A DNA stretch of 64,000 nt. Source: Candidatus Fermentibacteraceae bacterium. Its GTDB lineage: Bacteria; Fermentibacterota; Fermentibacteria; Fermentibacterales; JCC-6. Location of the stretch: the NCBI GenBank assembly GCA_016744855.1, contig JADGDO010000005.1, positions 1 to 64,000 of the forward strand, read 5' to 3'. The notes under the pieces were generated by a model, which did no database searches, was not told the DNA's origin, and saw only the letters and a list, made by a program, of their open reading frames with translations. The position numbers were made by a program, and so were the translations under genes. Shown piece by piece: positions 512-13,560 of this stretch (position 1 is the stretch's first letter; each line of letters opens with the position of its first letter).

Positions 512-1150
512 ATGATAAAGCAATTACTTGTACTAGCAATAGTTTTTTCTGGAGCAAATGCAGGACCAATAGAAATCGGTACAATGGAAGATGGTGGCAA
601 CCAGCCCTTTGATTGTTGAGGAGCTCTCCAACACTGCCAGGTGGTGGTATTGCAGGAAGACATTGGGACCGCATTCGAAATCAGTGAAATCACGTTTGTT
701 ATTGATCATTCATCTGGAGCCTCATATGTAAACGAGTTTACTCTCAGTTTGGCACATGTTGAAAGTGATCAGCTTACAAACACATTCACCGCTAACTATC
801 AAACGGCATCGCTGGTCGAAGTTTACTATACCGATTCGCTTGATCTCTCCGGTGAGAATGGAGATGAAATTTGCTTGGAATTGCAAACTCCATTTCAATA
901 CAATGGTCAAGATAATCTCCTTTTAGACATTAATTACCCGGATGGAAGTTGCTGGACTGCTGCCTATATGTGGGAAGCAGGCTCTGCCAGGTGCCTTACT
1001 GGTATGTTTCTGCCGGGTGGAAGTGCAGGATCAACAGGAGATCTTTTCGACAGTGTTCCGTACATGATACTTGAGGGCACTGAGAGCCTTGATCAGTGCA
1101 CTTTTGGCGCTATTAAAATAGAACTCGGTGGGATGGGAACCGACCAGTAA
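512..1150 (+). CDS. Secreted protein with an in-frame TGA at codon 36 (candidate selenoprotein, else nonsense-interrupted)
   Basis: ATG at 512 follows AAGGAG (499-504) with 7-base spacing. The first codons encode a clear signal peptide (MIKQLLVLAIVFSGANA, then GPIEIG). After Cys35 there is one TGA (617-619), and the same frame then continues openly for 176 codons to TAA at 1148-1150, giving 212 residues if TGA is read. The part after TGA has no signal peptide and no ribosome binding site of its own. It reads as a normal secreted beta-rich domain with several Cys, and there is no frameshift or second stop. A hairpin with an AGGT loop follows the TGA. I do not recognise the family, and no sorting domain is visible at the C-terminus. 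The TGA could be selenocysteine, read-through as Cys or Trp, or a nonsense mutation that has killed the gene. Neighbours give no functional clue. Confidence 0.65.
629..652 (+). promoter_or_regulatory. SECIS-like hairpin after the TGA at 617
   Basis: Positions 629-638 pair with 643-652 around a four-base loop AGGT (639-642), giving nine pairs (two G-U) with one C-A mismatch. The loop begins 20 bases after the last base of the TGA, with 19 nt between. Known bacterial SECIS elements have an apical loop about 16-37 nt after UGA with G at its start; the E. coli fdhF loop is AGGUCU at 17 nt. Folded by hand, so the significance of the stem is untested. Confidence 0.45.
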
Positions 1151-1199
1151 AATTACTACCTGCAGTTCATATAGAAGCGACTGATTGGAATCTTGATAT

Positions 1200-1287
1200 T
1201 TAGTGGTTTATCTCCGGTAGTGAGAGCAGGACATCACCTAACAAATAATAAGAAAGTCTCTGATCTAAAGAGTGGGAGCTGTTTTTG
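1200..1287 (+). pseudogene. Decayed copy of the 5S rRNA 3' end plus its terminator
   Basis: This stretch aligns with 330-416 of the real 5S and terminator. TCTCCGG, then GAGAG-AGGACATC, then AATAAGAAAG-CTCTGATC and TAAAGAG followed by a T-rich end recur in the same order and nearly the same spacing. Many substitutions break the helix I strand (CGCCGGGCA has become CACCTAACA) and the terminator stem. Weaker similarity may begin near 1171. The 5' half of the 5S is not recognisable. It looks like a remnant of an rRNA operon end left by an old duplication or rearrangement, with the 512 gene between the two copies. Confidence 0.7.
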
Positions 1288-1303
1288 TTCTAATGAAATG
1301 ACG

Positions 1304-2341
1304 TTAGAGAGATTGAGAATTTACAAGGTCAATTGCGTATTCAAGTACTGGGTCAATCCCGTGCGCAAAGTCTTCTTTGGTTGCTTCAACATATATATCC
1401 GGTGGAATACCGAACGATTCAACTGGCTCCTTGTCGACCGTCCGAAGGGACCATCCGGGTGCTCTGATCGCCCAACCGCCCACCAAATCAACAGTATAAC
1501 AGAAGGCTGCTGCGCCATTGGTAGTGTCACCAATAACAGTGACATTTTCCAGGCAGTTCAAAAATAGAGTGAAAGTTTCAGTTGCGCTGGCACATTCTCG
1601 GCCAATCAGAAGGTATACCTCTCCCTCGAAGAAAGTGGAATGATTGGGAAAGGTATAATACGGCAAATAGTTAACATCATCGTAGCCCGGACCATCTCGA
1701 CCGCGACTGAAAAACGCGAGTTCGGTGCTGCTGGTAAAACAACCGGCTAAATCCCTGCCGATCCAGCTGTTGCCACCACTGTTCATTCTCACATCAATTA
1801 TGATGGCTGGAACACCCTCACATAGTTCAACGTATTCTCTTGCACGCTCTACGTTGCAGCTGTCTCCCCATGAGTCAATGACAAAATACGGTAGTAACTC
1901 CGGATCACAGAATCCGACATTCTCTGTAAATCCGCTGAAACCGGCAGGCAAAAGATAATTAGAGTAAAGAACGGGGAAGTCATAATTACGGTTTATCGGA
2001 GGATTCGACCACTGCGGAAAGCATCGTGTACCGGAAGGATCGTACATGAAAATATGACGATCTCTGAGTTCTGCAAGCATTGGAAGGATGGCTTCTCTTA
2101 CGATATCTTCGTAGGAAACAGCCTCTTCGGCGAATATTGAATAAGTATAGAAAGCTTCTTTCCAATCGACACCCTTGAGTGTGAATTCTGGATAATCGCT
2201 TTCGTAGAGTTCCCAGACCTGACGGAAAAGAGAGTAGTTCTCGCTGACGTTGTTCGGTTCGACCGGGCTGTGAAAGCAACTGCACAGGCATACCAGAAGA
2301 GCAATGAGACCGATAATAAATGCGAAACGATGAATATTCAT
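1304..2341 (-). CDS. S41-family (tail-specific-like) serine peptidase, lipoprotein
   Basis: A 345-residue protein with an N-terminal hydrophobic segment ending in LCSC, which fits a lipobox with Cys22 as the lipidated residue. It would therefore be anchored in a membrane on the outside of the cytoplasm. The C-terminal half has S41 peptidase features: DVRMNSGG at about 183-190 and GRECASATETF at about 248-257, where Ser252 fits the catalytic Ser of the GxxxSAxE-type motif. I see no PDZ domain, so it resembles the compact S41 enzymes rather than CtpA-type proteases. Substrate unknown. The gene stands alone, convergent with the gene and rRNA remnant upstream on the plus strand, and divergent from the M42 gene. 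Confidence 0.8.
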   Translation of the reverse strand: MNIHRFAFIIGLIALLVCLCSCFHSPVEPNNVSENYSLFRQVWELYESDYPEFTLKGVDWKEAFYTYSIFAEEAVSYEDIVREAILPMLAELRDRHIFMYDPSGTRCFPQWSNPPINRNYDFPVLYSNYLLPAGFSGFTENVGFCDPELLPYFVIDSWGDSCNVERAREYVELCEGVPAIIIDVRMNSGGNSWIGRDLAGCFTSSTELAFFSRGRDGPGYDDVNYLPYYTFPNHSTFFEGEVYLLIGRECASATETFTLFLNCLENVTVIGDTTNGAAAFCYTVDLVGGWAIRAPGWSLRTVDKEPVESFGIPPDIYVEATKEDFAHGIDPVLEYAIDLVNSQSL

Positions 2342-2555
2342 ACTTACCTTGTCTCAGAAATACGTTTAGTATGACAACAATGAAAATATATATCGATTTA
2401 AAATACGGAACAATAGACTGTCGACTTAAGTGAAGAATGTAGAAAAAGCAATATGTATAAATGAATTTATCGGTTCTAAGATCTGGTCACCTCCTCGCCC
2501 TATCTGTTAGTATATATTCCATTGTCTTTAAACAATTAAAGTGAAGGAGAATATT

Positions 2556-3617
2556 TTGAACAAAGAATCAAAACAGTTTCTTGGAAAGCTTCTAAAGGAA
2601 TCAAGCCCATCTGGCTATGAAAACTCTGCTGCAACAATTTGGAGGGCGGAGGCCAAGAAGTTTAGTGATGAGGTTAAAGGCGATTACCACGGAAACTCAT
2701 ATGCCACCATTAACCCAAAAGGTAAGGTTTCAGTCTATATGTCAGGACATATCGATGAAATCGGTTTTATGATAAAATCAATCACTGAAAAGGGATTCCT
2801 GAAGATTGCTCCAATTGGCGGTGTCGATCCTCATGTGGTAGCTGGGCAGAGAGTTAATGTATACACCAAGAAGGGTTCCATTCTCGGTGTTCTCGGCAGA
2901 AAGGCTATTCATCTCCTTACTCCTGATGAACGCAAAAAGGTTACAGACATCAAGGACATGTGGATCGATATCGGTGTAAAGGACAAAAAGGAAGCCGAAA
3001 AGCTTGTTGAGATAGGTGATACTGCAACTATCGCTGTCGGGTTTGAGAAGCTGCGGAAATCAATTTATGTTGCAAGAGGATTTGATGACAGGGCTGGGTC
3101 ATTCGTTGTTCTCGAAGCCCTTAGAATGCTTTCTGAAGAAATGAACTTTTCACACAAGGTAACATCTGTTGCCACAGTCCAGGAGGAAATCGGAGTAAGG
3201 GGCGCTATTACAAGCTCCTTCAATGTTAATCCTCAGATCGGTTTTGCTGTTGATGTAACGCATACTTCGGATATGCCCGGTATCGACAAGGATCTTTTTG
3301 GAGATATCAAGCTTGGTGATGGTGCAATCATCGCTAGAGGTCCAAACATCAACCCGAGACTCTTTGAGCTTCTCGTGAAAACTGCTGAGGAAAACAAGAT
3401 TCCATACAAGGTAATTGCTGAAAGCAGAGGCACTGGTACAGATGCAAATGCAATTCAGCTTGCCAGAGGTGGTGTTGCAACTGCTCTTGTAAGTATTCCT
3501 AACAGATACATGCATACACCTGTTGAAGTTGTTTCTCTTGATGATGTAGAGAACTGCGCAAAACTCCTTGCAAAGACTATTGCAGCAATCAATAGTGCAG
3601 AGGATTTTATCATATAG
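2556..3617 (+). CDS. M42-family metallo-aminopeptidase
   Basis: The start is chosen as TTG at 2556 because AAGGAG (2544-2549) sits 6 bases before it; an in-frame GTG at 2541 would place that site inside the gene. The ~353-residue protein has the M42 metal-site signature: MSGHIDEIGF (His ligand near residue 65), RGFDDRAG (bridging Asp), VQEEIGVRGA (catalytic Glu and metal Glu), AVDVTHTSDMPG, and a C-terminal RYMHTPVEVV with the last His ligand. M42 enzymes are cytosolic, tetrahedral dodecameric aminopeptidases that trim peptides after proteasome or Lon-type breakdown, using two Zn or Co ions. A strong terminator follows immediately, so it is probably a single-gene unit. Confidence 0.9.
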   Translation: MNKESKQFLGKLLKESSPSGYENSAATIWRAEAKKFSDEVKGDYHGNSYATINPKGKVSVYMSGHIDEIGFMIKSITEKGFLKIAPIGGVDPHVVAGQRVNVYTKKGSILGVLGRKAIHLLTPDERKKVTDIKDMWIDIGVKDKKEAEKLVEIGDTATIAVGFEKLRKSIYVARGFDDRAGSFVVLEALRMLSEEMNFSHKVTSVATVQEEIGVRGAITSSFNVNPQIGFAVDVTHTSDMPGIDKDLFGDIKLGDGAIIARGPNINPRLFELLVKTAEENKIPYKVIAESRGTGTDANAIQLARGGVATALVSIPNRYMHTPVEVVSLDDVENCAKLLAKTIAAINSAEDFII

Positions 3618-3624
3618 CGATAGG

Positions 3625-3658
3625 AAGACCCCGGTTTCAGGCCGGGGTCTTTACTTTT
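3625..3658 (+). terminator. Terminator after the M42 peptidase gene
   Basis: AAGACCCCGG at 3625-3634 pairs perfectly with CCGGGGTCTT at 3642-3651 around a 7-base loop, followed by TTACTTTT. It lies 7 bases after the stop codon. Confidence 0.85.
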
Positions 3659-3734
3659 CAAACTGTCTACCCTAATCAATTATCAGAGTATTGAGACTTA
3701 GTTTCTCGAGGAGATCGATGCAGGGAAGGAAACT

Positions 3735-3962
3735 ATGAATGAACTAATAGCAGTTGGTGAATTTGAAAATCGAATTGAAGCGGAGATTGCTCAAGGGCTT
3801 CTCACCGATGCGGGAATAGAATCAATAATAAAGGCCGACGATTGTGGTGGAATGCTTATGGGTGTTTCTCTGATCCGCAAAGGGGGCATCAAAATAATGG
3901 TTTCGGGTGAAATGAGTGAGAAAGCCATCGATGTACTGTCCGTGCTTTCAGAAGAGGAGTGA
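3735..3962 (+). CDS. DUF2007 family small protein
   Basis: A 75-residue acidic protein. ATG at 3735 follows GGAAGGAAACT. The pattern (VGEFENRIEAEIAQGLLTDA, then GIESIIKADDCGGM, then GGIKIMVSGEMSEKAIDVL) fits the DUF2007 family, annotated as a putative prokaryotic signal-transducing domain. These are small ferredoxin-like-fold proteins that read as one repeat of about 70 residues; their role is unknown. There is no signal peptide or membrane segment. It lies between the M42 terminator and the NlpC/P60 gene 46 bases downstream, which may be co-transcribed. Confidence 0.75.
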   Translation: MNELIAVGEFENRIEAEIAQGLLTDAGIESIIKADDCGGMLMGVSLIRKGGIKIMVSGEMSEKAIDVLSVLSEEE

Positions 3963-4008
3963 ACTTTTTAGTTTTTGCGGGGTAGAACACTAAAAAGAAA
4001 GGTCCTTT

Positions 4009-4488
4009 ATGTTAAAAATTACTTTTTTGCTAATTGTTACAGCCTCGGTTCTCTTTGCTGAAACTACGCAAACTACGGAAACAGATATTGTTTCAGAAGT
4101 TACTGTGGAAGAGCATTCTGCCGTTATAGATGCAATTCTTGAGCAAGCTGAATCTTATCTCGGTGTTCCATATGTTTGGGGCGGGGCAGATGCAAATGGA
4201 TTTGACTGCAGTGGATTAACCTACAGGGTATTTAATGATAACGGTATAGAGTTACCAAGAACTGTTTCCGCCATTGAAGAAATCGGAACAGCAGTGAGCC
4301 GCGATAGTTTGCTGCCGGGAGACATTCTCATCTTCCACAACCCCACACATACAGGTATCTATATGGGAGAGGGGAACTTTATTCACTGTTCCTCTTGGCA
4401 AGACAGAGGCGTGGTTATAACAGAGATAACTCAGTCCAACTATGCCAGAAGATATCATTCGGCGGTAAGAATTATTCCCTCAGAATGA
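4009..4488 (+). CDS. NlpC/P60 family cell-wall hydrolase, secreted
   Basis: A 159-residue protein. Residues 1-17 form a signal peptide (hydrophobic core FLLIVTASVLFA), followed by a short acidic linker and an NlpC/P60 cysteine peptidase domain from about residue 42. Catalytic residues are visible: Cys67 in GFDCSGL, His114 in THTGIYMG, and a third polar residue likely His126 in FIHCSS. The PYVWGGADANGFDCSGL block is typical. NlpC/P60 enzymes cut the D-Glu to diamino-acid bond in peptidoglycan stem peptides, here presumably in the periplasm. There is no SH3 or LysM wall-binding domain, so it is a minimal enzyme. The gene is convergent with the ion-channel gene on the minus strand. Confidence 0.88.
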   Translation: MLKITFLLIVTASVLFAETTQTTETDIVSEVTVEEHSAVIDAILEQAESYLGVPYVWGGADANGFDCSGLTYRVFNDNGIELPRTVSAIEEIGTAVSRDSLLPGDILIFHNPTHTGIYMGEGNFIHCSSWQDRGVVITEITQSNYARRYHSAVRIIPSE

Positions 4489-4532
4489 CAGGTTGCTTAT
4501 TTCTGTAGGATTGATGTGTGAGCATATTACTC

Positions 4533-6419
4533 CTAATCCTCTGCCAGTACAATAATCATATCTGTTTCAGTGAATTGAACCATTTCACTCTTGTCGGGAT
4601 TTACCTGGATGCCATAGACCATCTCAGGGTTACTCTTCTGTGAAGTAATTCTGTAACCAAAGGCAATTTCATTCAATTCAGAAGCGCTATTCACTACAGT
4701 ATAGAAATTAACAGGTTCCTCGCAGGAAACATATCTCTTGACGGGTTTCAGATAGATTTCAGAACCTTCCGGATCGAACAGGTCCCAGAAGAGGGTACTA
4801 AGATCTTTGTTCTCTGATATCTGGGTGAGAAGCAGACTGAGTATCTGGTCGCTTACTATGTAGTCATCGGCTCCAGCAATCTGGGCAAGATTCCTATTTT
4901 GAACATCTCTCATCTCGCTGATAATTGAAAATGGCTGCCCGATTGATTGACCTATGTCTCTGATATGCAGCAGCGTCATTAAAGTGGAAGAATCAGCGGT
5001 TTGAACATCGAGATTATCTGAGTAGCTTAGAAGAATAATGTGATCGTACTGTTCGATTGAGAGAGCTTCCAGAACACTGCGATCGGTTGTGTCCCCCGGG
5101 ACATAGTTGATGGAAAGATTCTTTAGAGCAAGAGGAAGCTCCGGATCGCAGAGAGAGTCGTCTGCTACAAGAGTGAGGCTTGAATCCTGCTGAAGGTAGT
5201 TGGAAAGCTCTCTGATGATAATTGGTGCTCTCCAATTCCATCCCAGCATAACAATTTTGCGAGATGTATTCTCCTCATCGGGTAAATGGGAGATGGCACC
5301 AGGTTGTGTCTGTATATCCTGTTTTCCGGAGGGAACCACTGTATCATCGTCTTCAGATACTGCAATTACAGAGTCACTAGAGGATATAACAGTGTTCATC
5401 GGTGGGTTAAGAATTGCAGGGGCATTGTCGGGTTTTAACCCAATAACACTGCTGGTTTCATACATCAGAAGGGCTTCTGCGAACGTTTTACCGGTAAGCT
5501 TGGGTTCCTTCTGGAAATAGATCTCGTCCCCGTCGTAATCCAATAGTTCCTGATAAACAACAGAAAGACCTGACTGAAGGCATGTCTGAGCAGCCATTCT
5601 GGCAATGATATCTCCTGCTAGAATAACTTCAGCTTGGTCTCCACCAACAATCCTTGCCGCCTGGATGTTGTCAGGATCGCTTATCAGAGCTACCATGTGA
5701 ACGGGATTTTTTCTTTTATTAGATCCACCAGTGATTGCAAGCATAATCTTGATAACTTCCGGGTCAGGATTATCACAGTCAGGTGACAGAATAATTATTG
5801 ATTTAGAAGTGTGAAGACTTATCCTTTCCAGATCTCCCGGAACAACCGGTCTGCCAGTTCTGCAAACCACTCTGGTGTTTCTGAGATTCTCAACTTTCTC
5901 CCTAATCTCATCTTCCATTTCAATTTTATCTTTGTCTGCCATTATGGAGACACATGGGTTCTTTTGATTTTCATTTGCAATAGAGAGTTCGGAGATTATT
6001 GTGAAAACCTGCTCTGACCAGCCTAGAATAACGGTGTGTCCGGTTTCCACAATTCTTGACTTGCCTTTTCGAAGTGAATCAAGTTTTGCTTCAAGCCCGG
6101 TTGTAAGAATACCAATAAGTGTACTAAAAATGAAGATACCGCTGAATGTTACAAGCAGCATGCTCAAGAGGAATCCTACCCCTCCGGCATCTCCTCCAAT
6201 TGTTCCAGGGTCCATAGTTCTCATTAGACTCATCCAGAGCAGGGTGGGGAACCCCTCACCATCCGGTGCAGTTCCGCTGAGCATTATGATTGCCGAAAAA
6301 ATAACAATCAGTATTGCGGAGAGAACTCCCAACCAAAAGATCAAGCCAGCGGTTCCTCTGGACATCATTGTATCGAAAGCGTATCGGAACTTGTCTTTAC
6401 GGCTGAATTCGCGGCTCAT
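4533..6419 (-). CDS. CASTOR/POLLUX-like ion channel with RCK/TrkA-N-type domains
   Basis: A 628-residue protein. Two transmembrane helices near residues 24-48 and 80-106 flank a pore-like segment (TLLWMSLMRTMDPGTIGG, 59-76). A first nucleotide-binding RCK-type domain starts near HTVILGWSEQ (128-137) and a second near KIVMLGWNWRAP (about 388). The LGW-x pattern in place of the canonical GxGxxG is typical of the CASTOR/POLLUX/DMI1 family, known as calcium-gated or cation channels in plants, with bacterial homologs of about this length. Ion selectivity cannot be read here. It lies 48 bases downstream of the GGDEF-STAND gene on the same strand, so the two may be co-transcribed. Confidence 0.82.
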   Translation of the reverse strand: MSREFSRKDKFRYAFDTMMSRGTAGLIFWLGVLSAILIVIFSAIIMLSGTAPDGEGFPTLLWMSLMRTMDPGTIGGDAGGVGFLLSMLLVTFSGIFIFSTLIGILTTGLEAKLDSLRKGKSRIVETGHTVILGWSEQVFTIISELSIANENQKNPCVSIMADKDKIEMEDEIREKVENLRNTRVVCRTGRPVVPGDLERISLHTSKSIIILSPDCDNPDPEVIKIMLAITGGSNKRKNPVHMVALISDPDNIQAARIVGGDQAEVILAGDIIARMAAQTCLQSGLSVVYQELLDYDGDEIYFQKEPKLTGKTFAEALLMYETSSVIGLKPDNAPAILNPPMNTVISSSDSVIAVSEDDDTVVPSGKQDIQTQPGAISHLPDEENTSRKIVMLGWNWRAPIIIRELSNYLQQDSSLTLVADDSLCDPELPLALKNLSINYVPGDTTDRSVLEALSIEQYDHIILLSYSDNLDVQTADSSTLMTLLHIRDIGQSIGQPFSIISEMRDVQNRNLAQIAGADDYIVSDQILSLLLTQISENKDLSTLFWDLFDPEGSEIYLKPVKRYVSCEEPVNFYTVVNSASELNEIAFGYRITSQKSNPEMVYGIQVNPDKSEMVQFTETDMIIVLAED

Positions 6420-6467
6420 TGATTCTCCTCTTGAAATTTTTTATTTGAAAATATCGAACAGTGGAAA

Positions 6468-9400
6468 TTAATCATTGAGAAGCGGAATGGCAATTCCCCT
6501 TTCTCGGCAGCTGTTCAGAAAGAAAGCAATATCTGACCTCGATAGAATACTGTTGCGGACAGATTCCGAGTCAATCGCTGAAAGTTGCCCTGCTAATAGT
6601 TCAAGAGCTTTCTCCAGCACACTAATCCCCTCACTTGAATTGCCGTTTTTTTCCAGGGCAAGAAGAAGGTTACCATACATGTAAACTATCTCATCAGGTG
6701 CGGGGTTATTTGTCTCTGAAATTGATAGCTTTATTGTAGTGATAGCTTCGGTAAAAGAGGCAGGTTCTTCCTTGTGTGTGACAGGGTAAAGCATAAGAAC
6801 GCCCCTGAGATGACGCAGTATGCTGGAGAATTTGTGTTCTGTCTCGGAAGACGGCAATGCTGCAAGTATATTCCTGCAGCTATCAAAATCACCTACAGTA
6901 AGCAGTGCTTTAACTGTCTCCAATTGAGATTCGTACATCATTTCAATGCAATTGAGCTCAGAAAAAATTTCAGTAGCCTTTCGGAGATAATCTACCGCCT
7001 GATCTCCTTTTTGGTTCAGAAGTGATAGCTTCCCGAGACCAAATTGTCCGTATGCCATGCCCAGTTGATTCTCAATTTTGCTGTTAAGCTCAATGTACAT
7101 CTGGAAGTATCTTCTTGCCAGGTCCAGCATGTTGAGTTGTGTGTAAGATTCAGCCAGATTGTAGTATCCGATGGCAAGACCGAGTCGATCATCGAGTTTA
7201 CTGTTTAGCTTTATCACTTTTTTAAGAGTTTCCAGCATCGAGTTATAATCACCTTTTTGTGCGTAGATATCGTGCATGTTGTTCAGAATCACCGCTTCAC
7301 CAGTGGGGTCATTACCTTCAATACAGATATCCAGTCCCTTTACATAGTGCGCAAGTGCTTTGTCTGAAGAACCGGTTTCTGCTTCCAGATCAGCAAGTCT
7401 CGTGAAATACATACCCTCAATTACCGGTTTGTAGTTATTGTTTTCTTGATCCAGAAGTTTTCTTGCCTGTTCCAGTTTATCAGCAGCCTGTTTGAAACTG
7501 CATTGAATTCTATAGATGAAAGACAATCCCAGAAGCGCACCAAGCATATCATTAATGAGACTGCTTGGCCTTGTGCTCAGTGAAAAAGCTAATGTCAGTG
7601 TTTTATTGAAAAACTCAATTGCTTTCGGATACATGCTGCGTCTGTTGTAATTATCACCCAACCTGTGGTAAACTCCACACAAATCCGCAGGATCCTCTGT
7701 GAGAGTCAGAGCGAAGGTTAGGTGTTTCTCTGCAAGTTCTGCTTTTCCGGTTATCGAAAAGAGTATACCTATGTTAATGTGGGCCCTGAAGAAAGCTTCT
7801 GGGTCATCATCACCGGAAACAAGATTTAAGTATTCCCTGTACCAGTGGATGGATTCAGAGTGCAAGCCAGCACTGAAAGTAAGTTTTGCAGCTTGTTTCG
7901 AGTACCTTGCGGCCATAATTTGGTTTCCGCTATTACAGAAATGATGAGCAATCTCGGAAGCAAGAGGAAGTTCCGCTGATGCATCTGACACTCTGAGCAC
8001 TAGAGACTCGGCAGTTCTTTCATGAAGTTTGCGACGAAGAGATGGAGATATTCTGGATATCAGGTGGCTTCGCATAACTCCATAAGTAAAGCTGTATTTG
8101 CTTCCATCATCTTTCAGAAAACCTTTTACAACAAAACGATCTAGGATTTCAGCTAGTTCAAATTCTCTCATTGATGTTAGTTCTGTGAGCAGATTAAGGG
8201 TGAGCATCGTACCTGCAAGGGCTGCTCTTTTTAACACTCTCATTTCGCTTTCAGAGCAGTCTGAAAGCATCATTTCAACTATCGAGCAAACATCATCAGG
8301 GAGTTTCTGCTCTTCCGGCTCCACCCAGAGGCAGATATCTCCTTTACCGATTTTCAGCGAACCAGTTTCAACACACCAACTGATCAGTTTTCGTAAGAAA
8401 AGAGCATTTCCACCGCTTTGTCGCATCATATAGTCGAGTACATCAACAGGAACTCCTGGAGATTTCATTGCAAAGAAAACCATCGTTCTTACATTCAGTT
8501 TACTGAGAGGAGCAAGATGAATTTTATGGAAATTGATTCTGCTCCAGACAGGTTTCAACTGATTCCAGGTAGCCACATCTCTACTGATCGCTATATAAAA
8601 TATTTTTGCTTCCGGTACTGAGGAAATAACACTTCCTGCAAACTCGATACTTTCAGGAGAGGCCCACTGGAAATTGTCAATAATGAAGACAAGGGGTTTG
8701 ATATTGGATAATTCTCTGAGAATTATGCCTAGATCCCTGGTGTTTCTTGCCTTTTCTGCTAGCGGTACAGCAGATATTGTTCGGTGGGTTGTATTCAATG
8801 AATATTCACCAAGCTGCTCGGCTGTATAGCATTCGACAGGGCTCAGTGAATTTCTCAGTTTGTTCAAATTGATCTCTGAAAGGTCAGAAAGGGCATTCCT
8901 TAGTAAATCGAGAATAAGAGAGTTCTCTTCTTGATTAACAGCACTTGCTTGTGTTTTGTACACCGGGGTTTGTCTGAATCGGCAGTAGTTGAGAAGCTCA
9001 TCCACGAGCTTTGTTTTCCCAGTGCCCTGCAATCCTGTGATTAGACAAAAACCTGCGCGCTTGTTTGAATTGTCAAGAAGTTCTCTGAGTTGCCGGAGCT
9101 CATCTCGTCTGCCAACCATATGGGAGAAGTCGGGATCAACTTGCCGCTGAATTTTGAGATCGTCTGCAAGGACAAACCGCCCTCTGCCTGTATCCTTTGC
9201 CCTGTATAGGGCCTGATCCGCCATCGAAATCAGATCCGATAACTCACTGTCCGCCGGCTTGCTTTGAGCAATTCCGAGAGAAGCACTGATTTTTAAACCT
9301 CCTGGGAACTCTCTGCTTCCAAGTTCAAAAAGGAGTCTTTGTGCGAGATCAAGAGCAGAGTTCCCATCTGTGTCCGGAAGAATTACAACAAATTCATCAC

Positions 9401-9644
9401 CACCGAATCTGAGTGCATGATCATTGCTTTTCAGGTTAACTCTGATTGTCTGGCCTACATGCGAAAGTACCTCATCACCTGCCAAGTGACCGTATATATC
9501 ATTTACAAGTTTGAAATGATCAATGTCAAGAATAAGAAGTGACCAGACATGTTTTCTGAGAGAGAATGCTCTGTTAAGAGCAACGAGTGCGGTTCTGTCT
9601 TTCAGACCAGTCAGGGGGTCTGTCCCCTTCAGCCCGGTGTTCAA
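6468..9644 (-). CDS. GGDEF domain-STAND ATPase-TPR fusion regulator
   Basis: A 1058-residue soluble protein. Residues 1-160 are a GGDEF diguanylate cyclase domain with an intact FGGDEF at 80-85; the inhibitory I-site RxxD reads KSND, so product inhibition is probably lost. Residues ~175-520 form an AAA/STAND-type ATPase with Walker A GLQGTGKT (204-211) and a Walker B-like PLVFIIDNFQWAS. The rest is a long helical TPR-like array (for example AVILNNMHDIYAQKGDYNSM, AIGYYNLAESYTQL). The layout copies the cyclase-STAND-TPR regulators in which an adenylate or guanylate cyclase domain holds the first position, but with GGDEF instead. It should make c-di-GMP under control of an unknown ligand sensed by the TPR part. 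The start is taken as TTG at 9644; I see no convincing ribosome binding site, so the true start may lie slightly upstream. Confidence 0.82.
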   Translation of the reverse strand: MNTGLKGTDPLTGLKDRTALVALNRAFSLRKHVWSLLILDIDHFKLVNDIYGHLAGDEVLSHVGQTIRVNLKSNDHALRFGGDEFVVILPDTDGNSALDLAQRLLFELGSREFPGGLKISASLGIAQSKPADSELSDLISMADQALYRAKDTGRGRFVLADDLKIQRQVDPDFSHMVGRRDELRQLRELLDNSNKRAGFCLITGLQGTGKTKLVDELLNYCRFRQTPVYKTQASAVNQEENSLILDLLRNALSDLSEINLNKLRNSLSPVECYTAEQLGEYSLNTTHRTISAVPLAEKARNTRDLGIILRELSNIKPLVFIIDNFQWASPESIEFAGSVISSVPEAKIFYIAISRDVATWNQLKPVWSRINFHKIHLAPLSKLNVRTMVFFAMKSPGVPVDVLDYMMRQSGGNALFLRKLISWCVETGSLKIGKGDICLWVEPEEQKLPDDVCSIVEMMLSDCSESEMRVLKRAALAGTMLTLNLLTELTSMREFELAEILDRFVVKGFLKDDGSKYSFTYGVMRSHLISRISPSLRRKLHERTAESLVLRVSDASAELPLASEIAHHFCNSGNQIMAARYSKQAAKLTFSAGLHSESIHWYREYLNLVSGDDDPEAFFRAHINIGILFSITGKAELAEKHLTFALTLTEDPADLCGVYHRLGDNYNRRSMYPKAIEFFNKTLTLAFSLSTRPSSLINDMLGALLGLSFIYRIQCSFKQAADKLEQARKLLDQENNNYKPVIEGMYFTRLADLEAETGSSDKALAHYVKGLDICIEGNDPTGEAVILNNMHDIYAQKGDYNSMLETLKKVIKLNSKLDDRLGLAIGYYNLAESYTQLNMLDLARRYFQMYIELNSKIENQLGMAYGQFGLGKLSLLNQKGDQAVDYLRKATEIFSELNCIEMMYESQLETVKALLTVGDFDSCRNILAALPSSETEHKFSSILRHLRGVLMLYPVTHKEEPASFTEAITTIKLSISETNNPAPDEIVYMYGNLLLALEKNGNSSEGISVLEKALELLAGQLSAIDSESVRNSILSRSDIAFFLNSCRERGIAIPLLND

Positions 9645-9803
9645 TGGAATATTCTCGGTATGTACAGCGCACCCCCCGTAAAAGAAACCCCTCTACGCTA
9701 TGCATAAGCATATTAGCTTCCAAGAGTAAGCTGCAGTATAGTGGCCCTGGGCGCTATTAAGTAAGCAAAACCAATTGTCATCAACAGTCATCTACAGGTT
9801 TTT

Positions 9804-12185
9804 CTACTCGCTTACATAGACATTAAGCCAGTTTTCTGTTTCCCACAAACAATGCAGAACAGACTCCCTGGCGGAGTAAGAGTGTCCTTCCAGTGGCAAC
9901 ATTACAAGCCTTGAAGTGCCTCCCAGACCCTTGATTGCTCCAAACAGTCTTTCGCTCTGAATAGGGAATGTGCCTGAATTACTATCCTCTGCACCGTGAA
10001 TGATCAACAAAGGTTCATTAATTCTGTCTGCAAACATGAATGGGGACATCTGCCAGTAAACCTCAGGAGCTTCCCACAATGACCTGTCTTCAGACTGAAA
10101 GCCGAAAGGTGTTAGAGTTCTGTTGTATGCTCCTGATCTTGCGAGACCCGCTCTGAAGATGTCCGAGTGTGCCAATAGATTTGCTGTCATGAACGCGCCA
10201 TAAGAATGTCCCCCGACTACAAATCTGCTGCGATCCCCGATTCCCATTTCAACCACAGCATCCACAGCAGCTTCAGCATTCATTACCAGCTGATCTATGT
10301 ATGTATCATTCGGATTTTCACCGACAATTGGCATTGACGGATCATCAAGAACAGCGTAACCCATTGTCAGCCAGATTAGTGGGGACCACCAGCCAATATA
10401 GTCGTACATATAGGGAGATGATGTTATCTGTGAAGCAGCAGAGGAAGATACGAATTCCTCCGGATAGGCCCAGACAATCACCGGCAATGGACCATCCTCC
10501 GGAGAGTAGGCGGGTGGTGTATAGAGGGTTGCCGAAAGCTCGAGACCATCTTCTCTTGTATAGGTTATCAACTCTTTTGTAAACCCGTTAAGCTGGGGTG
10601 TTGGATTGGCGAAGTCAGTGATTCTACGATCTGTATTTTCTGCAAGATTCCTTATAAAGTAATTCGGGTACTCGGTTGGGGCTTCGCGCAGGAAGAGAAG
10701 GTTTCCCCCGGAGTCATTGGTAAATGCCATTGGTCTTTCATAGTAAGGGGCCTCTGAACTAAAAACGGTTTCTGTTTGATTTGTAGATAGATCAGTTTTC
10801 TTCAGAAAGGGAATGTTACCTTCTGGTGATGCTCCATCGCCTGACATCCAGATAGATTCACCGTCTTCTGAGAAGAGAACAGATCTTCCCATCTCATTCA
10901 GTATTTTCATAGGCGAGCCAGGATCGTTATAAGCATCTTCCCAGGAGTAGTCGTAGATCAGCTGTTTCGAGTAATCAGGATTTCCGGGGGCAATTCTCCA
11001 TGTGCGCATGTTTCTGGTCGGCCACCACCATTCAGAAATCAAGGCAAGAGAGGCGGTTCCCCAATCAATTCCACCAAATCTATTCTCAAGTACTGCCAGT
11101 TCTGAAGGATTGTCATCGAATGGATATGCAAGTTGCAATACCCTGTCGCGAAGCTCCGCCGGTTCACCGGCATCTCCTCCGTCAATAGCTTCCACCCAGA
11201 CCAGTGTTGACGATACATCAGCTCTCCATTCCACTGATCTTGGTCCATTGTATACACTTCCGATTGCAAGAGGGATGTTATCGCGCACCGGTAGATCTGC
11301 TATTGCATGCAGAGTCGTGCCATCTAGATCCCGTACCTCAATTCTCATGGGGAACCTTGAAGCAGTTACAGAATAAGAGAAGGGCTCATGTAGGGTGTGG
11401 ATAAGAACAATTTCCTCTCCCGGAGCAGGATCAAAGTCCCACACAATTCCAGGAAGACCTATCTCTGAGATGTTTCCGTTCAAATCAATCAGAGAAAGCT
11501 GAGAGGTCAGGTAGTATTTGAAAAGATCTTCATCGCGTTGGTTTTCAAGCAAATTCTGAAGAGTTCGAACCGGTGCTTCCTCTCCTGATGTTTCTTGTAC
11601 TACAGGTCCTTCGGGTACTGGGTTGTACTCCTGAAGAAGTAAGTCATCCACACGGGTACAGGTCAGTATACCATCGCTCGAGGGAAGCCACTTGGGGTAG
11701 GCTCTAGCTGTAAGATTGAGCACCGGTCCGGTGAGTTGTCTCGCTTCGAGCGTGGAGATTTCTATAAGCCAGAGCTCAACACCGTTTTCTGTCTCATTTG
11801 TAATTGCAACCATTGATCCATCGGGTGACCATGCCCTGCTTAACGACCTAAGTCCTTCGGGAAGACCTTCTATCGCTTGTGTTTCCAGAGTTTCCATGTT
11901 CATCAATACAATTTCTGTATAGACTGATGCTCTTGTTGGAGCAAATGTTTCCGGTCGGAATAGCATTCCAGCCAGCTTGAGCTCAGGCTGTGCTAGTTCG
12001 AGGATTGTTGAATTTTTTCTCCGCGTTCTTAGAATGCACCACTTAAAATCAGGTGAGATGCTTATCGATGGGGACCATTTCGCATCTACAATATCTATCA
12101 GAATCTGCTCAGGTTCCTGGTAGTCGATAGCGAAAAGAGAGGTAACTACAATAAAAAGGGGAATACAAGCGAATATACTTTTCAT
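9804..12185 (-). CDS. S9 family (S9D glutamyl endopeptidase-like) serine peptidase, secreted
   Basis: A 793-residue protein with a signal peptide (hydrophobic core IPLFIVVTSLFA). The N-terminal ~500 residues would be the beta-propeller; the alpha/beta-hydrolase domain follows. The catalytic triad is readable: Ser661 in GGHSYGAF, Asp734 in IHGAEDSNSG, His768 in LPLEGHSYS. The stretch around AHSDIFRAGLARSGAYNRT and the SPF-ADRI-EPLLIIHG pattern matches S9D glutamyl endopeptidases better than DPP-IV. These cut peptides in the periplasm or outside the cell. The gene sits alone, 159 bases upstream of the GGDEF-STAND gene on the same strand and divergent from the FG-GAP gene. Confidence 0.88.
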   Translation of the reverse strand: MKSIFACIPLFIVVTSLFAIDYQEPEQILIDIVDAKWSPSISISPDFKWCILRTRRKNSTILELAQPELKLAGMLFRPETFAPTRASVYTEIVLMNMETLETQAIEGLPEGLRSLSRAWSPDGSMVAITNETENGVELWLIEISTLEARQLTGPVLNLTARAYPKWLPSSDGILTCTRVDDLLLQEYNPVPEGPVVQETSGEEAPVRTLQNLLENQRDEDLFKYYLTSQLSLIDLNGNISEIGLPGIVWDFDPAPGEEIVLIHTLHEPFSYSVTASRFPMRIEVRDLDGTTLHAIADLPVRDNIPLAIGSVYNGPRSVEWRADVSSTLVWVEAIDGGDAGEPAELRDRVLQLAYPFDDNPSELAVLENRFGGIDWGTASLALISEWWWPTRNMRTWRIAPGNPDYSKQLIYDYSWEDAYNDPGSPMKILNEMGRSVLFSEDGESIWMSGDGASPEGNIPFLKKTDLSTNQTETVFSSEAPYYERPMAFTNDSGGNLLFLREAPTEYPNYFIRNLAENTDRRITDFANPTPQLNGFTKELITYTREDGLELSATLYTPPAYSPEDGPLPVIVWAYPEEFVSSSAASQITSSPYMYDYIGWWSPLIWLTMGYAVLDDPSMPIVGENPNDTYIDQLVMNAEAAVDAVVEMGIGDRSRFVVGGHSYGAFMTANLLAHSDIFRAGLARSGAYNRTLTPFGFQSEDRSLWEAPEVYWQMSPFMFADRINEPLLIIHGAEDSNSGTFPIQSERLFGAIKGLGGTSRLVMLPLEGHSYSARESVLHCLWETENWLNVYVSE

Positions 12186-12336
12186 TTTCGCACCTTTCAG
12201 AAAGAGCTTTTGTGTTGTTTATATGAATATGCAACACTAAACATAGAAAGGCGAATTTTACTTGTTTTATATAGTGTTTGATTTTATAGTAGTGCACGGT
12301 GTTCTATGATAAGTTTCGCGAAATGAAAGGAAATCG

Positions 12337-13560
12337 ATGAAAATGAAGTTTTGCTTGATTGCTTTGGCTCTGCTCTGCTTTTCAGCAGCGGTTGCGCTTG
12401 ATTACCAGGCTCCTTTTAAAATTAATGCAAATGGATCTCCCATTGAGTTGGGGCTGGGTCATGCTAACCCCCTTGTTACTGACTGGAACGGAGATGGCCT
12501 GAAGGATCTAATGATTGGGCAGTACAGTTCGGCAAAAATCAGATACTATATCAACTCGGGCTCCAACGAAGCGCCTGTGTTTACTTCATTTACCTATCTT
12601 CAGGCAGATGGAACAGATATTTCCCTCTCTTCCGGTTGATGCACCGGAGCAACAAATCCACAGGCTGTGGACTTTAATAATGACGGACTTGATGACTTAA
12701 TCGTTGGAGAAAGAGAAGGCTTCGTAAATTATTTCAGAAGGCTTGCAGATGGAACTCTTACCAGTGAGGGAAGAATTCAATCAGGAGCTGCTGACCTTGA
12801 TGTTGGCAATAACTCTGCACCTTTTGTGTACGACTGGAATAACGACGGTCTGCTTGATCTAATTGTAGGCAGAGAAGCTACTTCCGGTGGAAGCGTACAT
12901 CTCTTTCTAAATGAGGGAACCGAAGAGACTGCTGTTTTCGACGGATTTACTCCTGTGATGAAGGGTTCTTCTCCGGTTTCCTGGTCAAGAAGCATACCGC
13001 ACATGAGAGATATGAATGATGATGGTCTAACGGATCTTCTTGTTGGAGAGGATAATGGTCACACTTATTATCTCGAAAACTCTGGAAGTGTAGGTTCTCC
13101 TGTTTTTACAACAAGTCCTGCAATTTCTGTTAACGGCAGTGCTTATGCATGGCCTTCAGGACAGACAGATTGCACAGTTTATGTAAATGACTGGAATGAA
13201 GATGGTGTTCTTGACATTATTCAGGGGAATTACGTTAAGAATGTATGGGTCTTCCTCGGTAACAGCGTTTCTGTAGAGGGATCAACTTCTCAGGCTGTTG
13301 GTCCTGAAGTTTCAATAGATCTATACACCAATCCTCTTTTCAACTCTTTGAACTATTCCCTTACATCAGCGCAACCGGTTTCCGTTGCAATCAGCATTGT
13401 AGGAATGGATGGAAGAATTGTACAGCAGTGGGACCTTGGAGTTCTACAGGGATCCTCGGATCATATTCATAACGTATCAGACTTGCCATGCGGTGTTTAC
13501 TCGATGGTGGTTCAGGCCGGCAGCGAGATGTCCAGCCGTCAGATTGCAGTGATTCGCTAA
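12337..13560 (+). CDS. Secreted FG-GAP/VCBS repeat protein with sorting domain and an in-frame TGA at codon 101 (candidate selenoprotein)
   Basis: ATG at 12337 follows AAAGGAAATCG. A signal peptide (MKMKFCLIALALLCFSAAVA) leads into five FG-GAP/VCBS Ca-binding repeats with cores DWNGDGLKDLMIG, DFNNDGLDDLIVG, DWNNDGLLDLIVG, DMNDDGLTDLLVG and DWNEDGVLDII. Residues ~320-407 form a FlgD/type IX-like C-terminal domain. One TGA (12637-12639) lies between repeats 1 and 2, followed at once by a Cys codon: SSG-TGA-Cys-TGA(Thr-Gly-Ala)TNPQ. The frame is open on both sides to TAA at 13558-13560, 407 residues in all. Repeat 4-5 has a Cys at the matching linker. The part after TGA has no start site or signal of its own, since the next possible start is a GTG inside a repeat. 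Selenocysteine insertion is the most attractive reading; a nonsense mutation or sequencing error remains possible. The role is probably cell-surface adhesion or binding. Confidence 0.75.
12654..12674 (+). promoter_or_regulatory. SECIS-like hairpin after the TGA at 12637
   Basis: TCCAC (12657-12661) pairs perfectly with GTGGA (12667-12671) around the loop AGGCT. A mismatch and two further A-U pairs extend it outward. The loop begins 23 bases after the TGA, with 22 nt between, inside the 16-37 nt window known for bacterial SECIS elements. Its AGG start resembles the E. coli fdhF loop AGGUCU and the hairpin at 629-652 in this window. Folded by hand only. Confidence 0.45.

Follow-up and report, generated by a model that had tools for sequence, protein, structure and literature searches.

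The catalogue of prokaryotic selenoproteins of 2026 comprises 119 families; most characterised selenoproteins have a thioredoxin-like fold, and the largest bacterial selenoproteome cited as previously known counts at least 57 genes (PMC13188914). The published constraints on the bacterial SECIS hairpin (bSECIS) are a loop of 3-9 nt with G in loop position 1-2, a stem of 4-16 bp, a spacing of 16-37 nt and a minimum free energy (MFE) of -7.5 kcal/mol or lower. It is against this background that two interrupted genes of a Fermentibacterota genome are considered here.

The window, that is the whole stretch of 64,000 nucleotides that was analysed, is contig C63 of a 3.24 Mb genome in 107 contigs. 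It holds gene A, downstream of a 5S rRNA gene, and gene B (Table 1). Both are very probably intact genes whose TGA is read as selenocysteine (Sec, U) in exported proteins, a conclusion reached without protein or selenium data. An earlier note had described two non-homologous genes with exactly one internal stop apiece, TGA in both, and this description was confirmed. Gene A has no match in Pfam or NCBIfam, whereas gene B is an FG-GAP protein in Pfam (PF13517, 84.6 bits against a cut-off of 26.9, in four stretches; PF01839, 43.9 against 22.1). The AlphaFold model of B is a confident propeller (pLDDT 86.7) that matches FG-GAP structures. The structure of A predicted from a single sequence reached a pLDDT of 36, and a sequence search of the PDB with family A gave no match. 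In its repeats and its confident model gene B is thus like the FG-GAP beta-propellers (PF13517, PF01839) of the integrin alpha head, BBS7 and CRTAC1; it differs from them by a U-C-[TQ]-G-A insertion in the loop before the first strand of one repeat, an insertion that the consensus shows in no other repeat. The tail of B scores below the curated cut-offs (20.4 bits against 27, 20.1 against 23). Hydrophobic N-termini equivalent to that of A are found in its homologues.

Table 1. Coordinates of the recoded genes and their features (positions in the window unless a contig is named)
Feature	Position	Strand	Remarks
Gene A, family A exported selenoprotein (predicted)	512..1150	+	212 aa with read-through, one Sec (U36); ATG 512, internal TGA 617-619 = codon 36 (...PFDC-U-GALQHC...), terminal TAA 1148-1150
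Signal-peptide-like N-terminus of A, MIKQLLVLAIVFSGANA	512..562	+	judged by eye
Cys35 (TGT) then Sec TGA (617-619) of A	614..619	+	alignment column: 35 U and 13 C among 49 members
SECIS hairpin of A	632..647	+	loop AGGT 639-642, 19 nt after TGA; MFE -10.0 kcal/mol
Gene B, family B exported FG-GAP selenoprotein (predicted)	12337..13560	+	407 aa, one Sec (U101); ATG 12337, internal TGA 12637-12639 = codon 101 (...SSG-U-CTGATNPQ...), terminal TAA 13558-13560
Signal-peptide-like N-terminus of B, MKMKFCLIALALLCFSAAVA	12337..12396	+	judged by eye
Sec TGA (12637-12639) then Cys102 (TGC) of B	12637..12642	+	conserved in Fermentibacterota and other phyla
SECIS hairpin of B	12655..12674	+	AGG at 12662, 22 nt after TGA; MFE -8.2 kcal/mol
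C-terminal domain of B resembling the T9SS type A sorting domain (Por_Secre_tail)	13321..13545	+	below curated cut-offs
Family C gene	C19:284587-285594 (L233:4587-5594)	-	336 aa, AYC-U-GG (U118)

The AGG-loop hairpins noticed earlier at 19-22 nt after each TGA proved to be real in both genes, and they satisfy every published bacterial SECIS constraint. The hairpin of A is 5'-[GA]CTACC-AGGT-GGTAG-3' and that of B is 5'-ATCCAC-AGGTT-GTGGAT-3'. Each was retained among homologues well beyond what the encoded protein would dictate: 30 of 34 A homologues have the hairpin, as against 14.6 (maximum 22) after protein-preserving codon shuffling, and 42 of 42 B homologues have it, as against 15.7 (maximum 23). 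Compensatory changes were found in both stems (TAC/GTA to TAT/ATA in A, CCA/GTG to CCG/GCG in B), a silent change being matched to an amino-acid change with the pairs kept. Covariation amounted to 0.393 for the A hairpin, with no more than 0.211 in slid registers, and to 0.226 for the B hairpin, with no more than 0.099; none of 500 shuffles was as high in either case. Where a codon has been inserted in a member of either family, the spacing to the loop shifts by 3 nt.

Relatives of gene A occur in 40 of the 42 Fermentibacterota genomes, usually several in each, and nearly all have exactly one TGA. In one aligned member the TGA lies two columns away; all 13 Cys-type members have their Cys in the TGA column itself (PFCADC as against PFCADU). 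The motifs range from CU (PFDCUG) to CxxU (PFCADU), the latter with CxxC counterparts (PFCADC). The contention that a Cys codon adjoins the TGA stands for gene A (Cys-TGA) and gene B (TGA-Cys) and fails as a rule for the families at large, in which variants without a directly adjacent Cys are found, both CxxU (PFCADU, CGGU) and U-G-H (STUGHAA). Members of the two families are 24-72% identical to the window genes, and the position of the TGA is nonetheless kept. Downstream of the TGA, close B orthologues have a pN/pS of 0.22-0.27, similar to the value upstream; among A homologues the five closest give 0.27-0.45, at a pS close to saturation.

These comparisons bear on the possibility that each TGA is a nonsense mutation or a miscall, and A and B are pseudogenes or assembly errors, as might be supposed from the presence of an internal stop in both genes of one MAG. 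That possibility is already refuted by the recurrence of TGA at one codon in large families, across independent genomes and phyla, by the absence of TAA or TAG at that codon in the alignments, and by purifying selection that continues after the TGA, together with covarying hairpins. In essentials, the interpretation given in the earlier note was right.

Outside the phylum, profile and alignment reveal a related domain that has neither Cys nor Sec and forms part of large proteins; a free-standing TGA-type family A member (PFCGGU) occurs in one genome of another phylum. The Cys-free extracellular domain, IGTGT...RxQxLYLASEIG, recurs within proteins as long as about 2,200 aa in genome G181 (L180, L188, L190 and others) and is apparently the ancestor-type of family A. 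Family A is clearly related to this domain of G181, G115, G081 and other genomes; the latter has no Cys or Sec, and most of the proteins that contain it are hundreds to thousands of residues long, whereas family A proteins are free-standing, about 210 aa long, and carry C(xx)U.

Family B is represented at about 100 places in the phylum with one TGA. Its motif is U-C-T-G-A-[TS]-N-P-Q, with C-U and U-G-H as rare variants, and the TGA codons line up in a single alignment column (43 U, or 47 U in a wider set). Exchange of Sec for Cys is rare and confined to the second position of the pair; in some members the TGA stands one codon later (L158, GULGVFPR), aligned with Cys elsewhere (L161, GCQGVFPR). 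Members of families B and C without TGA have lost the motif or have other residues. The closest named loci are in Sabulitectum, Aegiribacteria and Fermentibacteraceae, and G016, of the same family as the window genome, carries a family B gene pair. At a further locus, L081:2975-7013 (G000:C19:67974-72012), two tandem B genes end 10 bp before a gene for a pyridine nucleotide-disulphide oxidoreductase (PF07992).

When the scan for family B was widened to 84,980 species genomes of bacteria and archaea, TGA-type genes with the TGA at the same site were found in MAGs of WOR-3/Stahlbacteria, Fibrobacterota, Chitinivibrionales, Planctomycetota, Lentisphaerae and Nitrospirota. The names of these MAGs may be wrong; the spread is broad nonetheless. 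Of the other-phylum genomes with TGA-type B, 25 of 30 have a clear tRNA-Sec; where the B copy fetched is TGA-free, the figure is 10 of 20. The five without one are mostly incomplete MAGs and remain unexplained. Two TGA-type B genes (L109, CP070834.1; L135, CP070644.1) are in MAG records titled as chromosomes in which no tRNA-Sec above about 41 bits was found; whether this reflects a divergent tRNA-Sec, missing sequence or loss is unexplained. Some family B genes of other phyla have no GG loop, and several loops in these MAGs (L108-L172) depart from AGG (GTGT, AGAT, ATGT), hinting at lineage-specific recognition by SelB.

Each of the checks proposed in the earlier note came out in its favour: the scan for further genes of this kind, the search for the Sec machinery and the comparison of TGA-interrupted genes with those interrupted by TAA or TAG. 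The genome encodes tRNA-Sec (68 bits against a cut-off of 47; ARAGORN calls a TCA anticodon), SelB (317 against 242) and SelA (503 against 268), the last two adjacent on C85, and selD adjoins them. This selD is of the Sec type, with an in-frame TGA at the active site (CAGUAGKMAPG) and an AGG-loop hairpin 22 nt downstream. Because Sec-containing SelD is a known selenoprotein, the gene serves as an internal positive control for the signal in A and B. The selenium gene cluster (L078:2894-9183; G000:C85:26893-33182) comprises selB, selA, selD, a family A gene, Se_S_carrier (PF11823) and TusA-DsrE; it was not seen at the other fetched loci, which have short flanks. A tRNA-Sec above about 59 bits was not found in six of the 42 Fermentibacterota genomes (G013, G016, G017, G019, G023, G031), mostly incomplete MAGs, five of which still carry TGA genes, and this is unexplained. 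G017 is the sole genome of the 42 in which a clear tRNA-Sec, family A and a strong B are all missing, with only a TGA-free C relative; it is possible that Sec has been lost there, though the genome is 73% complete.

The scan for interrupted genes covered C63, C85, C96, C19 and 20 kb of C74 (about 836 kb, about 26% of the genome) and retained stops with coding-like sequence on both sides and a SECIS-like hairpin. It yielded nine TGA cases, belonging to families A and B, selD and a new family, C, as against two TAA and three TAG cases, which on inspection resemble gene boundaries. The outcome of an earlier scan on a smaller scale was similar. In all, the window genome has at least nine A, at least nine B and at least three C genes with TGA (at least 21), plus selD.

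An in-frame TGA within coding sequence would also be expected if the codon were reassigned globally, for example to Trp or Gly. This too is already refuted. As had been pointed out before, TGA is an ordinary terminator elsewhere: it ends the NlpC/P60 gene and, in the scanned contigs, 147 of 413 long ORFs, a share comparable to that of TAA or TAG. The code is therefore unaltered. Within those contigs, an in-frame TGA flanked on either side by coding sequence is found only in genes that have the SECIS hairpin, and the residue with which it exchanges is Cys. A subtler proposal is that the short product is the main one and that the TGA, inefficiently read as Sec or otherwise, acts as a selenium-responsive switch between truncation and read-through. 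Sec decoding competes with termination in bacteria, and the sequence is compatible with such regulation. The proposal is nevertheless highly improbable, given that A cut at the TGA would retain only about 18 residues after signal removal and B one propeller fragment, and that the part downstream of the TGA is conserved.

Family C strengthens the suggestion that secreted selenoproteins form a class, since it is a third, unrelated exported Cys-Sec family. In the gene found in the scan (Table 1), a signal-peptide-like start is followed by a propeller-like body, and the T9SS tail scores 29 bits against a cut-off of 23. Its relatives occur in 42 of 42 genomes, with about 120 places that have one TGA, and in the alignment of 38 members the TGA lies in one motif, CU or CGGU. 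No exchange of Sec for Cys was seen in this family, the fetched TGA-free members being without the motif. One genome outside the phylum (G099) has TGA-type members. Family C resembles Vgb lyase/NHL-like propellers with a T9SS tail by weak matches, below the cut-offs, to Vgb_lyase, DUF6923 and PQQ_2; unlike them it has the CU/CGGU insertion and a SECIS, and no such selenoprotein is catalogued. At four inspected loci (L053, L054, L104, L116), B and C genes adjoin on the same strand, 24-136 bp apart, and coordinates suggest further such neighbours (G008:C152, G032:C200, G013:C168, G008:C166). This adjacency is suggestive of a shared pathway. The genome has the T9SS component SprA (416.7 bits).

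For A, B and C, the recoding and the family membership rest on tool results; their export is predicted from signal sequences, judged by eye for A and B, and from the tails. UGA would be decoded by the ordinary bacterial route (tRNA-Sec, SelA, SelB, SelD), with the SECIS hairpin just downstream recruiting SelB, and the products with signal peptides would then be exported. The T9SS-like tail of B, which stays below the cut-offs, and the clearer one of family C make delivery to the cell surface probable, and the family A product may be periplasmic or released. In this way a Cys/Sec pair (CU, UC or CxxU) would be placed on a beta scaffold in three unrelated lineage-expanded families. For A this scaffold is an IGTGT-type beta domain, for B an FG-GAP propeller and for C an NHL/SMP-30-like propeller.

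The function of the pair can be inferred only from the motif. The likeliest role for the extracellular thiol/selenol pair is a redox-active one, with cycling through a selenylsulfide, and to this we would give about an even chance. Redox is favoured by the Cys exchange in A and by the alternation of CU and CxxU common to A and C, whereas lineage expansion on propellers fits binding as well. With the same recoding, the pairs could instead bind soft metals or metalloids (Hg, As, Cu, Cd), scavenge electrophiles or cross-link surface structures through selenylsulfides. Many paralogues per genome, on propellers, resemble a repertoire of binding or structural surfaces more than one enzyme, and a capacity for binding is predicted for about 20% of known selenoprotein families, with metals involved in about 70% of it (PMC13188914). 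Such roles are possible but remain the less favoured: a partial look by eye at the listed neighbourhoods of A and B genes brought no metal-resistance gene to light, and thiol redox motifs typically show the kind of CxxC/CxxU exchange that family A has. Nor did gene neighbourhoods reveal a conserved enzymatic partner.

Whichever chemistry applies, the phylum probably runs a large extracellular selenoproteome of three unrelated, duplicated and partly T9SS-exported families, with the FG-GAP-Sec proteins that extend over many phyla serving at the surface as a selenium-based system for redox or capture that had gone unrecognised. The known selenoproteins would thereby gain at least three families, apparently unreported, with roughly 100 or more TGA-bearing genes each in one phylum. 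Standard gene calling stops at TGA, and A, B and C genes would appear truncated or as pseudogenes. Why selenium should be spent by anaerobic bacteria on exported proteins by the dozen is a question that follows directly. The sequences of the Sec peptides are fixed, as in one that spans SSG-U-CTGATNPQ, and metaproteomics can test the prediction.

No paper joining selenoproteins with FG-GAP, VCBS or Fermentibacter was found in the literature searched, most subscription papers being outside the search. Deng et al. (2026, groundwater MAGs, Cell Rep) are said to report unvalidated candidates. The NCBIfam selenoprotein models gave no match for families A, B and C. The three families are likewise absent from the 119-family table, which has no FG-GAP, propeller or T9SS entry (PMC13188914), the comparison having been made by name and domain, not by sequence against every representative.

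As far as could be checked, then, the decoding mechanism is known and the class, location and scale are new. Like the bacterial bSECIS selenoproteins already described (PMC13188914), A, B and C use UGA, a coding-region hairpin 16-37 nt away with G in the first two loop positions, the tRNA-Sec/SelA/SelB/SelD machinery and CU, UC and CxxU motifs. They share with the known envelope selenoproteins, namely the FCYXU TonB receptor, the GSU2204-type outer-membrane barrel and the ExtKL cytochrome (PMC13188914), the presence of Sec in an envelope or exported protein, but the domains are unrelated by name and no T9SS tails are noted for these proteins in the table. In contrast to the catalogued thioredoxin-like selenoproteins, A, B and C are beta scaffolds, exported by prediction, with many copies per genome, and in B and C Sec would be put on cell-surface beta-propellers instead of thioredoxin-fold enzymes.
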